Made by a program: the position numbers and the translations under genes
Part shown: positions 24,987 through 63,690 of the stretch, piece after piece
How the letters are laid out: each line of letters opens with the position of its first letter
Numbering within the stretch: the stretch's first letter is position 1
NCBI GenBank assembly: GCA_938036315.1
Contig: CALHPK010000001.1
Span: 144,109-208,108 of the forward strand
Reading direction: 5' to 3'
DNA: 64,000 nucleotides
Origin: an uncultured bacterium
GTDB taxonomy: Bacteria; Calescibacteriota; Calescibacteriia; Calescibacteriales; Calescibacteriaceae
The notes under the pieces: model-generated
Database searches by the model: none
What the model saw: only the letters and a program-made list of their open reading frames with translations
What the model was told of the DNA's origin: nothing

Positions 24987-25508
24987 TTAAAAGAGTATCT
25001 CTTCCTCCTTTTTGATCACTTCTTCTTTTGGTTCTTCAACCTCGGCTTCTGGTGCAGACGGAACAGGGACTCGAGGCTTTGGCAATATCTCAGGGATAAA
25101 CTTTGTGAGAAATGAATCTATCATATATAAATCCGCAAACCCTATAGGGCCAACTGTTACTGTTTCATCTCTGACTGACATACTGAAGAAAACGCCATCG
25201 TCTCTCCTTTCAATTTTGAAGGTTTTAGGTAATCCCCTTTTTCCAAACTTCTCCGGTGTGTGTGAAATAGATGGATTCTTTTTTGGAGATTGTCCAGCAA
25301 GTGTGAGTCTAGAAAATGCGCCTATGATTGATGCTTCTTGCGGAGTCAAAGCTATTGTCACCTTCTCTTCCCATCTATATTTCCTTCCACCTGACTCCCT
25401 GCCAGCACCACCTACGGGCTTAGCAAAAGATATAAACACAACTCCCCTCAGAGGATCAGCTGAAAATCTTATAGCTCCGTTGTTCCTGTATATAGTTAGG
25501 ACAGACAC
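24987..25508 (-). CDS. putative Whirly-like nucleic-acid-binding protein
   Basis: A 173-residue protein with no family I can name firmly. The pattern resembles the single-stranded-DNA-binding Whirly fold: FAKPVGG, then YRWEEKVTIALTPQEASII (compare Whirly YDW and FALSPTEVGSLI), then HTPEKFGKRG, then KTFKIERRDDGVFFSMSV (compare KSLSVEPLPDG), and a closing helix IDSFLTKFIPEILP. The C-terminus is acidic and Pro-rich, as in many single-strand binding proteins. It begins with GTG just 10 bases after the 3' end of tRNA-Ala on the same strand, leaving no room for a Shine-Dalgarno sequence. The Whirly assignment is by eye and tentative. Confidence 0.6.
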   Translation of the reverse strand: MSVLTIYRNNGAIRFSADPLRGVVFISFAKPVGGAGRESGGRKYRWEEKVTIALTPQEASIIGAFSRLTLAGQSPKKNPSISHTPEKFGKRGLPKTFKIERRDDGVFFSMSVRDETVTVGPIGFADLYMIDSFLTKFIPEILPKPRVPVPSAPEAEVEEPKEEVIKKEEEILF

Positions 25509-25518
25509 TTTATTTTTG

Positions 25519-25590
25519 TGGAGTCGAGGGGATTTGAACCCCCGACCTTCGGCGTGCCATACCGACGCTCTCCCGCTGAGCTACGACCCC
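25519..25590 (-). tRNA. tRNA-Ala (anticodon GGC)
   Basis: A full cloverleaf folds on the reverse strand. The acceptor GGGGTCG pairs with CGACTCC, the D stem is GCTC/GAGC, and the anticodon stem TCGGT/GCCGA closes the loop ATGGCAC with anticodon GGC. The T arm is GGGGG-TTCAAAT-CCCCT and the discriminator is A. CCA is not encoded (CAA follows). TATATT at 25602-25607 ends 11 bases before the 5' end and may be its -10 box. A GTG-started gene follows 10 bases downstream. Confidence 0.97.
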
Positions 25591-40381: not shown

Positions 40382-40453
40382 AGGCTGTTAGCTCAGGGGA
40401 AGAGCACCGGCCTTTTAAGCCGGGGGTCGCGGGTTCAAATCCCGCACAGCCTA
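40382..40453 (+). tRNA. tRNA-Lys (anticodon TTT)
   Basis: A full cloverleaf: acceptor AGGCTGT/ACAGCCT, D arm GCTC-AGGGGAA-GAGC, anticodon arm CCGGC-CTTTTAA-GCCGG with anticodon TTT, T arm GCGGG-TTCAAAT-CCCGC and discriminator A. CCA is not encoded (CAA follows). A GTG-started slipin gene begins 10 bases after the tRNA. Confidence 0.98.
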
Positions 40454-40463
40454 CAAATTTCAA

Positions 40464-41282
40464 GTGGAATTTACAACCTGGCTCCCAATTGTCATACTAG
40501 CAATATTCATACTTTCATCAGCAATAAAAATCTTACAGGAATACGAAAGAGGTGTCATCTTCAGACTCGGAAGACTAGCAGGGGTAAGAGGCCCCGGTCT
40601 TGTACTAATAATCCCACTTATAGATAAAATGGTGAAAGTATCTCTGAGAATAATAACCATGGATATAACTCCACAAGATGTCATAACAAAAGATAACGTC
40701 TCAATAAAGGTGAATGCAGTAGTTTATTTCAGAGTCGTAGATCCTGCAAAAGCAATAGTATCGGTCGAAAATTACATATATGCAACAAGCCAGCTAGCTC
40801 AAACCACACTAAGATCCGTCTGCGGTGAAGCGGAACTAGATGAACTTTTAGCACATCGAGAAAAGGTAAACACAAAAATCCAGTCTATACTTGATAGAAT
40901 GACTGAACCATGGGGAATAAAAATATCAGCGGTTGAAGTGAAACATATAGACCTACCAGAAGAAATGAGAAGAGCTATGGCAAGACAAGCAGAAGCAGAA
41001 AGAGAAAGAAGAGCCAAGATAACTCTAGCAGAAGCAGAACTCCAGGCTTCGCAAAAACTAAAAGAAGCAGCAGATACATTGGCTAAAAATCCAATAACCG
41101 TCCAACTGAGATTCCTGCAAACAGTAAGCGAACTTGCAACAGAAAAAACAGCAACGCTAATCCTCCCAATTCCTATAGAACTTCTGGGCTTCCTCAAACT
41201 CCCAATACAAGACCTGTTAAAACAAGAAAAACAACCAGAAGCCCTTCAAAAACCACAAGAACAAACAACACAACAAGGATGA
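40464..41282 (+). CDS. slipin/stomatin-like SPFH-domain protein
   Basis: A membrane-anchored scaffold protein of the prokaryotic stomatin (slipin) group, 272 residues. One N-terminal membrane segment ([15 protein letters not shown]) precedes the SPFH domain with [26 protein letters not shown] and [21 protein letters not shown] charged coiled coil rich in Ala and Glu follows, with the slipin end [12 protein letters not shown]. Slipins often pair with an NfeD protease, which is not here. The GTG start lies 10 bases after tRNA-Lys and has no ribosome binding site, but it gives the expected N-terminus. Confidence 0.9.
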
Positions 41283-58023: not shown

Positions 58024-61000
58024 TTAAAACACTTTTTTCTTTCTCTTTCGCAAAAGCAAGATCAAAGGCAAAGCAGAGATAAAGATAAGGTAGCCAAAAC
58101 CAGAAACTGAACAACCAAATTTTGAAGTAAGTTCTTGATCTTGATCTGAAGTGAATTCAGTTTGATCAGTTTGAGATGTGCCAAAGTACTGCGGAGCTCC
58201 ACCGCCACCGCCTCCACCACTTCCCGACAAAACTCTAACTGGAGTGCTTCTGTGTGTCCAGGTCCCATCTCCTAACTGCCCCCACGCATTCCACCCCCAG
58301 CACCAAAGTGAATTATCTGTCTTTACAGCACAGGTGTGTTCCCCTCCCAAAGAAACTTGTGAAACCCCTTGTGTTATCTGCACCGGGGTGTTTCTGTCTT
58401 GAGTTGTCCCATTCCCTAACTGTCCGAAGTAATTCTCCCCCCAGCACCACAGTGAACCATCTGTCTTTATCGCACAGGTGTGCCACCCTCCCAAAGAAAC
58501 TTGTGAAACCCCCGTTGCCATTATCTGCACTGGAGTGTTCTTGTTTTCATTTGTACCATCTCCTAACTGTCCGCGGTTATTACTCCCCCAGCACCAAAGA
58601 GAACCATCTGTCTTTACAGCACAGGTGTGAAAAGCCCCCAAAGAGACTTGTGAAACCCCCGTTGCCATTATCTGCACAGGAGTGTCCCTATAATATACAC
58701 CTGTCCCGTCTCCTAACTGTCCAGACCGATTATCCCCCCAGCACCAAAGTGAACCATCTGTCTTTACAGCACAGGTGTGCCACCACCCCAATGAAACTTG
58801 TGAAACACCCGTTGCCATTATCTGCACTGGAGTGTACCTGTTTGTCCAAGTCCCATCTCCTAACTGACCGAATTCATTCCACCCCCAGCACCAGAGAGAG
58901 TTATCTGTCTTTATCGCACAGGTGTGCCACCACCCCAATGAAACTTGTGAAACACCCGTTGCCATTATCTGCACTGGGGCGCTACTGGGTGCAGTTGTAC
59001 CATTCCCTAACTGCCCGTATTCATTCCTCCCCCAGCACCAGAGGGAGTTATCTGTCTTTACAGCACAGGTGTGATAACCCCCCGAAGAAATTTGTATAGC
59101 TCCCTCAAAGTATATTGATGAGGTGGTTGCTGATATTATATTTGAGTATGCTGTGTTTCCTGTTGAGTTGAAGGCATATACCCTGAAATAGTAGGTAGTT
59201 TTTTCTTGAAGTGATGTTATATATCCTTCTGTTGTGTTTGCTGAGAAAGTTTGTATTTGTGGATTTGAAAATAAAGAATCAGTTGAGACTTCGACAACAA
59301 ACCCTTGTTCGTTTGGAGAGTTATCCTGCCATCTTAATCCTACTGTATCAGCTGATACGAAGAAATAAGTGAGATTAGAAGGAGCAGAACAGGGCTCAAA
59401 CCCTTCGTCTATCCCTCCTGCGCAGTTATTATCAATTCCATCACATACTTCAGTCTGCCCCGGATTTATCGAAGAGTTTGAATCATCACAATCCCCAGGA
59501 GATAAAACAGCATATGTAGAGTTATCAGGATATGGATCAGTACAGGATACTTGAGAGCCCCCCACAGGATAATATCCATCAAAATCTGCATCCTTGTACC
59601 AAATAGTCCCAGGATTCAGATTAGCATTATTGTCATCACAATCTTCAGGAGATAAAACAGCATATGTAGAGTTCTCAGGATATGGATCAGTGCAGGATAC
59701 TTGAGAGCCCCCCTCAGGATAATATCCATCAAAATCTGCATCCTTGTACCAGATAGTCTCAGGATTCAGATTAGCATTATTGTCATCACAATCCCCAGGA
59801 GATAAAACAGCATATGTAGAGTTCTCAGGATATGGATCAGTGCAGGATACTTGAGAGCCCCCCACAGGATAATATCCATCAAAATCTGCATCCTTGTACC
59901 AGATAGTTCCCGGGTTTACATCCGGATTAAGGTCATCGCAATCTTCTGGCTTTGAAACAGATGTAAATCCTGCTGGCATAGTATTGGCACAGGTAGAAAC
60001 TGATGTCGTCCAAGTATCGGAATCTCGATCTTCCCAAAACCAAGTCTCTATATGCCCTGAGCAATCATTATCTTTCCCATTGTTGCAGTTCAGAGGAGCT
60101 CCAGGGTATATACTTGCTACACTATCGTCGCAATCCAAAAGTGTTATTGTTGTAAGGTTATATGGTGATGTTGGTCCACAAGCCACTTGCACCGCACCAT
60201 CTGTGTAACCATCAGAATCCGCATCTTTGTAGAATACCAATAATACCCCTTCATCTATTTCTCCATCGCAGTCGTTATCTATTCCATCACAAATTTCTGT
60301 TGCTCCCGGTTTTATGTTTGGATTGTTATCGTTACAATCACCAACCATTGCATACAAGACATATCCTTGTGGTTGCAAGCAGGATATCCGCGTTGTCCCA
60401 TCTGTGTAGCCATCAGAATCGCTGTCTTTGAACCATACTGTATTTGGATTTATCTCCGCTCTCTCATCATCACAATCTTGTGAATTTGAAACATAACCCT
60501 GTGGTTGCGTGCAAGCTTCTGTCACTGAACCAGGATTACCATAACCATCTGAATCTTTATCTTGATAAAACGTTAACTTCACACCTTCATCTATTTCTCC
60601 ATCGCAGTCATTATCTATTCCATCACAAACTTCTTCCTTTGGCACACACACTATCTCACCTTCCTTGTTTTCCTTCTTTATCTCTACCTTCTTCTCAAAA
60701 ACTGTCTCGGCTCCTTCGCTGTCTCTTACCACTACTCTTAATACATATTCCCCACCATCTGCAGTCTGAGGAACCTTTACAACCGCTGTCGCTCCATAAG
60801 GTGTTATCCAATCAAATTTCACTCCATCTTTCGTTATCTCCCAAGCAAACGTAACATCGTCTCCGTCCGGTTCATTCACTACCGCAGATGCTACAAATTC
60901 TCTCCCTATCCATATACCCCCTGTTGTACCTATCTTTATAACCCGTGGTGCTCTGTTCTCTTTCTTTACTTCAATCGTGGTTGAGACTGTGTCTTTGTTC

Positions 61001-63690
61001 CCTCCCGAATCCTGAGCTTGGAGCACCAAAAGCGCCGTCTTCGCACCTTGCGGAACTTGTATCTCAAACTCTTTCTCCGCTTTCCCTCTTTCCAAAATTA
61101 TAGAACCTGAATCAGAATATCCCCAATCCGTTACTGAAAGACTGTAATTTAAAAAACTTGAATCATCTGAAAACTCAACCTTTAATTTTGCTCTCCCCCC
61201 CGCTTTTGCTTGTCCTTTCTGGATTATCTTTATCAAGGGTGAGGCATCTTCTATTTCCAAAGTTATGTCAACCGAAGCAGTTGAACCTTTCTCCTTTGTC
61301 TGTATCTCTCTTTCTACTCTAACACCCTTGTAACTTGCATAAATTTTTACTTTTGTGTTAGGTGGTGCCTCGAGTTTGAACTGCCCCCCTGAATTTGTGT
61401 AGTCAACCTCTCCAAACTCCGTTTCTACCCTCACCCCTGGTATGTGATTCCCTCTTTTTGATTGAATAGTCCCTTGAACCCATGCAGGGCGAGTATCTAT
61501 CTCCTGCTCTGACCATACACACTCCGTCCCCTTTGCCTCGTATTCCTTCTCGTAAATCTCTTGCGTTGTAGATGTTTGGTATATAAACTTTACTTTGTAT
61601 CTGTATCTCCCTTCTTCTGATTTCTTCGCCCTTCCTCCTCGAACCTTAAAAAATCCATCTTCATCCGTAAAAACTGGAGACCTATCTCCAACTATGACTG
61701 ATACTCCCCTCAATCCTTTCCCTTCTTTATCTCTCACTTGCCCTTCTGCACATACCTCAACATATTCAAAGTTTGCACCCTGACAGGAAACTTGACTGTC
61801 CTCTGGCTTTACCCTGACAACTTCTGTTCTCCCCTCTGTTGAGCCATCCGGAAACTTTGCTATGTATGTGATTTTCACGTCCTCTGTTTGTGTAGGTCTT
61901 GGTATAAAAACTTCAAAATCCCCTGAAGATTTTGTTTTTGTGTTGTTCCCTCCAACGAAAACTTCTACCCCCTCTGCAGGTTGTGAATTTACAAACACCT
62001 TACATCCAACTTTCAAAGGAGAGAGATTTATTGAAAATTGACAGGTTTCAGCTGTTATATCTTTGTCAACATTTAAAGTTTTTTGTGCTTTGTAAGTTCT
62101 CCCGTCTTTTTCGGTAGAAATCGTAATAGTAATGTTTCCACCCCTTGAGATTAAACTGAAATTTCCAGATGAGTCAGTTTTTGTTGCCTTCCCTTCTGAT
62201 GATACAACATTTGCGTTCTGTATAGGATTACCTTCCTCATCCTTCACAAAGCATGAAACTGAAAACATTGAAGGCGGTGACAGAGTTGGACCTTCATAAC
62301 AACCTTCTTTCTTATCTCCAACTGAAAATTCCTTTACCCCTGAAATCTCTCCGTAGGTGCCATATATCCTTCCATTCCAAGCATAAATCCTGTCTGTCGC
62401 AAAAATCCTTATATTAGAATTAGAAGGAACATATAAGATATACTCGCCATTTTCGTCAGAAATTGTGTATGTTGACCTATATCCTGAGCATATCCATTGA
62501 CCTACAATCTCACCGTATCTTCTCAACTCCGAAGCCGTTACATAAACTCCACTCACTGGTTTCCCATCCGCTCCTATTACCTTACCTTTTACACATACAT
62601 TCCTTGGCAATGTTGGACACCCAAAACTCCACCAAGATGTGTGAGTTAGACTCATCTCCCCGTATGCGACCTCATCTAAAATTCCGTCCCCGTCCGTGTC
62701 TTCTTTGAATATCACAACCTTTGCTTCTTTATGCCTTTTCCATATTCCATCCTCAGCATCATATGAATACAAAGGGATAGAATTTGCTCCCCTTTTGTAT
62801 GCCTCTAAAGCGTCTTTTTGTAAACTTTCTGGCAATCTCCGCATCACCATTACTGGATTTTCTGGAGATGCCACCTGCACATCTTTGCCACCCTGCTTAA
62901 AACTTAAAGAAGTCCATCCAAGTGCTTTAAGTTCAACTTCTTCAATTCCTGAAATCCCTAAGATCCCCTTTGCCTCTTCATCTTGTGCTTTAAAATCCCC
63001 TGGAAAGCTATTTAAATTTCTGTCAGGGTCTCCAACTGTTATTTCTACTGTGATTTCTCCTTCCTGCTGTTTTGTAAAGAAAGATTTTATCTCGTCCAAC
63101 ACAGAAGAAGGTGATGCTCTTCCTGTTACTATTCTTCCTGTTACTAATCTTCCTGTTACAAAGGCTTCTCCCGAATCTGTTCTCATTGTTTCTGTTCCAT
63201 CAGGGTTTTGAGTATATCTACCTGTTACTAATCTTCCTGTTACGAATCTTCCCGTTACAAAGTCTGCTTGAATATCCACATTTATTGCCCTGCCTGTTAT
63301 AATTCTACCTGTTATAATTCTACCTGTTATAATTCTACCTGTTATAAGTCTGCCTGTTACAAAATCAGAGCGTATTACTTTATGAGAAGGAGCAAAACCT
63401 TCTTGTTCGACAGTGATTTTTATATCTTTTCCTTCTTGGATTGGGACTTCTGCTGAAAATACCCCGAACTCATCTGTTTTGGTTTCTTGAACTTTGCCAG
63501 CAGATTCAATTTTTACATTTGCCGAGATCAGGGGCTTTCCTTCTATGGAGTCCTTTACTGTTCCTGAAACAATTATGGATGTAAGTTCCTTTTCCTCTGC
63601 TTCATTTTTTACTTTACATAAAGAAGCACAAGACGAAAGGAAGACAAAGACGAAAAAATAAAGAATCAATAAACGTAGAATATTATTCAT
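58024..63690 (-). CDS. giant multidomain surface lipoprotein with VTGR, MopE-type, Fn3 and RCC1 repeats
   Basis: An 1888-residue exported protein, function unknown. A lipoprotein signal ends in FLSSC (Cys21). A carboxypeptidase-regulatory-like fold (about 30-105) leads to eleven [FLI][VI]TGR pentapeptides (about 107-196). Further regulatory-like and Ig-like domains with two Cys each run to about 1015. Acidic MopE-type units (CDGIDNDCDGEIDEG, DKDSDGYG) cover about 1017-1433, including three near-identical 50-residue copies. A fibronectin type III domain (about 1434-1530), six RCC1 blades (HTCAVKTD, LWCWG, GQLG; about 1530-1828) and a Gly run follow. The end is FGCSVSGFG, a hydrophobic stretch and RKRKKK, like Cys-containing C-terminal sorting signals. 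TATAAT ends 11 bases before the ATG. Confidence 0.88.
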   Translation of the reverse strand: MNNILRLLILYFFVFVFLSSCASLCKVKNEAEEKELTSIIVSGTVKDSIEGKPLISANVKIESAGKVQETKTDEFGVFSAEVPIQEGKDIKITVEQEGFAPSHKVIRSDFVTGRLITGRIITGRIITGRIITGRAINVDIQADFVTGRFVTGRLVTGRYTQNPDGTETMRTDSGEAFVTGRLVTGRIVTGRASPSSVLDEIKSFFTKQQEGEITVEITVGDPDRNLNSFPGDFKAQDEEAKGILGISGIEEVELKALGWTSLSFKQGGKDVQVASPENPVMVMRRLPESLQKDALEAYKRGANSIPLYSYDAEDGIWKRHKEAKVVIFKEDTDGDGILDEVAYGEMSLTHTSWWSFGCPTLPRNVCVKGKVIGADGKPVSGVYVTASELRRYGEIVGQWICSGYRSTYTISDENGEYILYVPSNSNIRIFATDRIYAWNGRIYGTYGEISGVKEFSVGDKKEGCYEGPTLSPPSMFSVSCFVKDEEGNPIQNANVVSSEGKATKTDSSGNFSLISRGGNITITISTEKDGRTYKAQKTLNVDKDITAETCQFSINLSPLKVGCKVFVNSQPAEGVEVFVGGNNTKTKSSGDFEVFIPRPTQTEDVKITYIAKFPDGSTEGRTEVVRVKPEDSQVSCQGANFEYVEVCAEGQVRDKEGKGLRGVSVIVGDRSPVFTDEDGFFKVRGGRAKKSEEGRYRYKVKFIYQTSTTQEIYEKEYEAKGTECVWSEQEIDTRPAWVQGTIQSKRGNHIPGVRVETEFGEVDYTNSGGQFKLEAPPNTKVKIYASYKGVRVEREIQTKEKGSTASVDITLEIEDASPLIKIIQKGQAKAGGRAKLKVEFSDDSSFLNYSLSVTDWGYSDSGSIILERGKAEKEFEIQVPQGAKTALLVLQAQDSGGNKDTVSTTIEVKKENRAPRVIKIGTTGGIWIGREFVASAVVNEPDGDDVTFAWEITKDGVKFDWITPYGATAVVKVPQTADGGEYVLRVVVRDSEGAETVFEKKVEIKKENKEGEIVCVPKEEVCDGIDNDCDGEIDEGVKLTFYQDKDSDGYGNPGSVTEACTQPQGYVSNSQDCDDERAEINPNTVWFKDSDSDGYTDGTTRISCLQPQGYVLYAMVGDCNDNNPNIKPGATEICDGIDNDCDGEIDEGVLLVFYKDADSDGYTDGAVQVACGPTSPYNLTTITLLDCDDSVASIYPGAPLNCNNGKDNDCSGHIETWFWEDRDSDTWTTSVSTCANTMPAGFTSVSKPEDCDDLNPDVNPGTIWYKDADFDGYYPVGGSQVSCTDPYPENSTYAVLSPGDCDDNNANLNPETIWYKDADFDGYYPEGGSQVSCTDPYPENSTYAVLSPEDCDDNNANLNPGTIWYKDADFDGYYPVGGSQVSCTDPYPDNSTYAVLSPGDCDDSNSSINPGQTEVCDGIDNNCAGGIDEGFEPCSAPSNLTYFFVSADTVGLRWQDNSPNEQGFVVEVSTDSLFSNPQIQTFSANTTEGYITSLQEKTTYYFRVYAFNSTGNTAYSNIISATTSSIYFEGAIQISSGGYHTCAVKTDNSLWCWGRNEYGQLGNGTTAPSSAPVQIMATGVSQVSLGWWHTCAIKTDNSLWCWGWNEFGQLGDGTWTNRYTPVQIMATGVSQVSLGWWHTCAVKTDGSLWCWGDNRSGQLGDGTGVYYRDTPVQIMATGVSQVSLGAFHTCAVKTDGSLWCWGSNNRGQLGDGTNENKNTPVQIMATGVSQVSLGGWHTCAIKTDGSLWCWGENYFGQLGNGTTQDRNTPVQITQGVSQVSLGGEHTCAVKTDNSLWCWGWNAWGQLGDGTWTHRSTPVRVLSGSGGGGGGGAPQYFGTSQTDQTEFTSDQDQELTSKFGCSVSGFGYLIFISALPLILLLRKRKKKVF
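58210..59100 (-). repeat. six RCC1 blade repeats, period about 147-150 bases
   Basis: Six DNA copies of a segment coding for the RCC1 blade (HTCAVKTD-LWCWG-GQLG) lie in direct tandem within the giant gene. Recurring landmarks such as ATCTGTCTTTACAGCACAGG return about every 147-150 bases with few changes, which suggests recent expansion or gene conversion. Confidence 0.85.
59477..59926 (-). repeat. three 150-base near-identical repeats in the MopE-type region
   Basis: The block containing GATAAAACAGCATATGTAGA recurs at 59501, 59651 and 59801, a strict 150-base (50-residue) period with only scattered substitutions. Each copy encodes one WYKDADFDGYYP acidic unit plus a DCDD motif. Confidence 0.9.
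63120..63370 (-). repeat. 15-base repeat array coding for [FLI][VI]TGR pentapeptides
   Basis: CCTGTTATAATTCTA occurs in tandem at 63293-63307, 63308-63322 and 63323-63337, followed by CCTGTTATAAGTCTG and further variants. Two shorter clusters lie at about 63120-63165 and 63220-63265. On the coding strand they give eleven pentapeptides in three groups of five, three and three. Confidence 0.92.

Follow-up and report, generated by a model that had tools for sequence, protein, structure and literature searches.

In a genome of the Calescibacterota, little-known bacteria of hot springs, over half of all tRNA genes stand directly before a protein gene on the same strand. At least 26 of 44 tRNAs are followed by a same-strand start codon 6–16 nt past the discriminator base, most often at 9 nt, and tRNA genes systematically abut same-strand protein genes in three genera. 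We are moderately confident that these pairs are tRNA-mRNA transcription units, in which read-through from the tRNA promoter and cutting of the tRNA at its 3' side would yield an mRNA whose leader is very short. Two pairs lie in the window, the 64,000-nucleotide stretch of DNA analysed here:

25519..25590, minus strand: tRNA-Ala(GGC), discriminator A at 25519 (ARAGORN and Rfam RF00005; C1:169627-169698)
25509..25518, minus strand: 10-nt spacer CAAAAATAAA from tRNA-Ala to the start codon, first base C74 (sequence)
24987..25508, minus strand: Whirly-domain gene, GTG start at 25508, 173 aa (Pfam PF08536)
40382..40453, plus strand: tRNA-Lys(TTT), discriminator A at 40453 (ARAGORN and Rfam RF00005; C1:184490-184561)
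40454..40463, plus strand: 10-nt spacer CAAATTTCAA from tRNA-Lys to the start codon, first base C74 (sequence)
40464..41282, plus strand: SPFH/band-7 gene, GTG start at 40464, 272 aa (Pfam PF01145, E 3.5e-43)

A sequence-only reading of the window had described a tRNA-Ala ending at 25519, a 10-base gap and the GTG at 25508 of a Whirly-like frame, and ARAGORN, Rfam and the sequence all agree with this description; the ARAGORN end of the tRNA, 25518, takes in C74, and the Rfam end is the discriminator. Its further statements that the tRNA-Lys locus repeats the layout at an equal 10-base distance, and that neither spacer holds a Shine-Dalgarno site, are likewise accurate. The CAAA onset to which it drew attention is present in both spacers, but the C is the encoded C74, found in all 44 tRNAs of the genome, and the remainder is A-rich spacer. 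The Pfam match of the Whirly-like frame is weak yet above the cut-off (E 5.6e-6, 26.7 bits versus 23). Whirly N-termini align across genera (SVLTIYRNNGAIRFSADPLRG versus MSALTIYKKTGAVRFSADPLRG; three other Calescibacterota records), and in a protein similarity search the close relatives all came from three records, HRbin19, BF2.bins.44 and Candidatus Calescibacterium nevadense, each of which carries tRNA-Ala just 5' of the Whirly gene, with 12 or 13 bases to an ATG. These relatives put the window in the candidate phylum Calescamantes/Calescibacterota. The SPFH start aligns with orthologues placed 9 nt after tRNA-Lys in three further genomes (G001, G002 and G003). Because homologue N-termini align across genera, the GTG starts at both loci are supported.

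The genome containing the window (G000; 1.87 Mb in 32 contigs, 85% complete) was analysed over 1.22 Mb, 65% of its length, with all 44 tRNAs included. G001, G002 and G003, which represent two other genera (G001 and G003 form genus g2), contributed their tRNA loci; all four genomes are metagenome-assembled and incomplete (82–86%). Each distance runs from the discriminator, where the Rfam match ends, to the first start codon in the same-strand gene that follows, with genes and start codons called from codon usage rather than full annotation. Same-strand neighbouring coding sequences of G000 with no tRNA between them, measured by the same first start codon, served as the control. A same-strand downstream gene is present for 37 tRNAs of G000, and for 25 of these the first start codon falls at 6–16 nt (8 at 9 nt, 5 at 10 nt and 3 at 8 nt), versus 47 of 424 control pairs (Fisher p 6e-14). 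The difference is equally marked at 8–10 nt (16/37 versus 10/424, p 3e-13). The 26th case is tRNA-Trp followed by secE at 12 nt, a frame of 59 codons overlooked by the gene caller. Corresponding counts at 6–16 nt are 23/33 in G001, 24/37 in G002 and 15/20 in G003. The suspicion that the two loci reflect a rule and not chance is thus borne out by a clear excess at short distance, genome-wide and family-wide. Ten bases, the distance originally singled out, has no special standing: the mode in G000 is 9 nt, with a lower limit of about 7–8 and an upper limit of about 15. Spacers of genus g2 are looser, mainly 9–15 nt with a few up to 23. Several tRNAs (among them G000:C6:98514-98586 and G000:C4:21013-21085) face a convergent gene whose 3' end is 2–12 nt from their own, which leaves no room for a terminator.

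Pairing of particular tRNAs with particular genes is conserved. Downstream proteins were grouped and then named from N-terminus similarity or family search, and 25 of the 26 pairs of G000 recur, with the same anticodon, the same gene and aligned N-termini, in at least one other genus. Kept pairs include Asp-hslV, Thr-mreB, Val-ribokinase-like, Cys-release factor, Ser-dnaX, Pro-thioredoxin, Lys-SPFH, Ala-Whirly and Trp-secE. Since N-termini align at the proposed starts, most of the start codons are sound. The most telling check is hslV: after tRNA-Asp, its TTG directly precedes a conserved TTV in all four genomes; TTV marks the N-terminal threonine of the HslV protease family. Spacer sequences diverge between genomes and their lengths remain short.

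The junctions are poor in the signals by which a gene would be expressed independently. A Shine-Dalgarno-like 4-mer at −17 to −4 was found before none of 87 tRNA-adjacent genes from the four genomes and before 46 of 257 unambiguous starts of G000. The 16S rRNA of G001, G002 and G003 retains a normal CCTCC tail, and strong Shine-Dalgarno sites precede about 11% of G000 genes. Genome-wide in G000, a −10-like box, TANNNT, peaks at −15 to −12 before start codons, a position suggesting leaderless promoters and, with them, a probable widespread use of leaderless transcription in Calescibacterota. This box occurs at that position before only 2 of the 87 tRNA-adjacent genes, versus 82 of the 257 unambiguous G000 starts, and consensus scans found no promoter within the tRNA-to-start junction of either window locus. 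TANNNT is instead enriched 19–14 nt upstream of the tRNAs themselves (44/87 versus 28 expected from shuffles), and stands upstream of 36 of 67 other tRNAs. Start codon choice also differs: unambiguous starts after tRNAs comprise 30 ATG, 14 TTG and 12 GTG, those of G000 as a whole 230 ATG, 21 GTG and 6 TTG, so that non-ATG starts are commoner after tRNAs (26/56 versus 27/257, p 5e-9). Spacers contain 6% G and 48% A. In all four genomes the 5' flanks of tRNAs are T-rich and C-poor and the 3' flanks A/C-rich and G-poor. An extended acceptor stem, in which the T/G-rich 5' flank would pair with the A/C-rich spacer, was considered and rejected, as pairing energies of each tRNA's own flanks were no different from those of re-paired flanks.

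C74 is encoded in 160 of 165 tRNAs (44/44 in G000, and 45/45, 30/30 and 41/46 in the three other genomes), C75 in about 60% and the full CCA in 73, about 45%. If cleavage followed CCA and the leader were fixed, spacers should be longer where CCA is encoded, but measured from the discriminator they do not differ (means of 10.6 with and 10.2 without CCA, p 0.48). The cleavage site cannot, therefore, be inferred from spacer length. RNase Z, the tRNA 3' endonuclease that the sequence-only reading had proposed as the cutting enzyme, is not supported in this role: no canonical RNase Z was found in the four genomes (82–86% complete), where the best match reached about 50 bits versus a cut-off of 293, and the best match in G000 scores above the PDEase_II cut-off instead. 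G000 has PNPase and the motif of a CCA-adding enzyme; a simple motif search of the 65% covered found no RNase E/G, a result that is not evidence of absence. All four genomes encode a metallo-beta-lactamase-fold, PDEase_II-like protein with weak RNase Z similarity (L311, G000:C2:31936-32331), and this protein could be a divergent tRNA 3' nuclease. A precedent for 3' maturation of this kind comes from Propionibacterium acnes, which has no obvious tRNase Z, encodes CCA in about half of its tRNAs and cuts some tRNA CCA ends between C74 and C75 (PMC3848588).

We favour co-transcription because tRNA-adjacent genes lack a promoter-like box of their own; with no Shine-Dalgarno site either, these genes are probably transcribed together with the tRNA. 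The scarcity of TANNNT before them and its enrichment before the tRNAs form the chief, though indirect, argument for read-through from the tRNA promoter. RNA polymerase would start just upstream of the tRNA gene and continue into the protein gene, and the A-rich, C-containing and nearly G-free spacer would stay single-stranded. Removal of the tRNA at its 3' side would then leave the mRNA only a very short leader, and it is plausible that this cleavage creates the mRNA 5' end. Given that the search for canonical RNase Z was negative and that almost every tRNA encodes C74, we propose that the cut is made after C74 or in the trailer by another nuclease, with the CCA-adding enzyme completing the tRNA. 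A cut between C74 and C75 would give leaders of about 8 nt and would explain the need for an encoded C74. Translation of such messages would draw on a capacity for leaderless mRNAs that seems common in the organism, and weak start codons may offset a strong tRNA promoter. Non-AUG starts are unusual in leaderless translation of E. coli, which counts against this proposal, but P. acnes uses GUG there (PMC3848588).

The short spacer could also serve an uncut transcript. The tRNA-mRNA would be translated whole, the folded tRNA resembling a 5' cap and ~9 nt of spacer giving the 30S subunit its clearance, and the tRNA would be freed later by 3'-5' exonucleases degrading the mRNA up to the acceptor stem. 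A lower spacer limit near 8–9 nt, sharp in G001 and G003, speaks for this arrangement, as do the equal spacing from the tRNA body with and without encoded CCA and the presence of PNPase and a CCA-adding enzyme motif where canonical RNase Z was not found. It would, however, tie tRNA supply to mRNA decay, and a processed short leader fits the spacing too; we regard it as unlikely. Ordinary genome compaction, by which spacers have shrunk as far as possible and tRNAs lie near other genes for no further reason, accords with the few bases that separate some tRNAs from an upstream or convergent gene. We consider it highly improbable: same-strand gaps between coding sequences are broad with no peak at 8–10 nt, gaps on the upstream side of tRNAs are mostly 40–200 nt, and trimming leaves both the start codon bias and the lost promoter-like box unexplained. 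Least credible is that the tRNA gene houses a separate promoter for each protein gene, from which a leaderless or short-leader mRNA would arise independently, since, for all the apparent wide use of leaderless promoters in the organism, the −10-like box is depleted at precisely the leaderless position, the scans of both window junctions were negative, and at a distance of 9 nt the box would coincide with the acceptor stem and CCA end, which are fixed by tRNA function.

The layout is rare. In a survey of 386 genomes, based on a single T-loop pattern followed by RTG at 7–14 nt (near) versus 37–44 nt (far) and on tables read by eye, only seven (G000, G002, G025, G048, G093, G095 and G361) reached both 16 near matches and a near/far ratio of 2.5. 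Two of these with a high ratio, G025 and G095, were rejected when their loci were read one by one and the rule proved absent. G093, a genome of 1.6 Mb and 29% GC from another family, whose genus is shared with G361, shows the layout at 7–12 nt for at least 12 of its 30 tRNAs (loci L220-L249), and C74 is not universal there. Universal C74 is thus not required, and occurrence in another family suggests that the layout probably arose more than once. A broader proposition can be advanced only tentatively, and we hold it to be more doubtful than not: that throughout the phylum tRNA excision is the standard means of making 5' ends for a fixed group of essential mRNAs (hslV, mreB, dnaX, thioredoxin and others), by a nuclease other than canonical RNase Z acting at an encoded C74, with protein output tied to tRNA maturation and the arrangement having arisen independently at least twice. 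Searches of the open-access literature led to work on mitochondria, plants and archaea, with no bacterial precedent for a genome-wide layout; a paper on Calescamantes contains no discussion of this layout.

Judged from sequence, the layout appears to be a bacterial counterpart of the tRNA punctuation of animal mitochondria, with putative membership as regards excision. In both, a tRNA directly precedes a protein gene that lacks a ribosome-binding site, and the mRNA 5' end would arise when the tRNA is excised. Unlike mitochondria, the present case concerns a bacterial chromosome whose tRNAs have promoters of their own and a spacer of ~9 nt where mitochondria have none; excision is predicted, and the share taking part is only about 60% for tRNAs and small for genes. 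We have not filed it as a proven member of that class, because the expected RNase Z was not found and excision is putative. Bacterial operons that place a tRNA and a protein gene on one transcript, such as the tufB operon of E. coli and tRNA-Trp-secE, are known in small numbers from any one genome, and their leaders are usually normal ones that include a Shine-Dalgarno site. The pair tRNA-Trp-secE is also among those described here, but the Calescibacterota layout differs in taking in the majority of tRNAs (at least 26/44) with a common short spacer and no Shine-Dalgarno site. Leaderless mRNAs of Actinobacteria and others resemble the predicted messages in having leaders shorter than 10 nt, no Shine-Dalgarno site and tolerance of GTG (P. 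acnes, PMC3848588); their 5' ends are transcription starts, whereas here the 5' end would stem from tRNA maturation. P. acnes shares the absence of an obvious tRNase Z and the partial encoding of CCA, but no systematic downstream gene has been reported for it (PMC3848588).

Punctuation by tRNAs is a feature known from organelles; in free-living bacteria it is not known as a general rule. If the proposed transcription units exist, expression of more than two dozen conserved proteins would hang on tRNA promoters and tRNA maturation, and a processing enzyme would decide with which base the messenger begins. The production of tRNA 3' ends and of mRNAs with short leaders could then be studied in a natural experiment, a lineage that lacks canonical RNase Z. 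The spacing also supplies a simple annotation rule for picking GTG and TTG starts after tRNAs. Elsewhere in the window, the minus strand at 58024-63690 encodes a protein of 1888 aa with repeated VTGR motifs, MopE-like CDGIDNDCDGEIDEG repeats and RCC1-like WCWG repeats.
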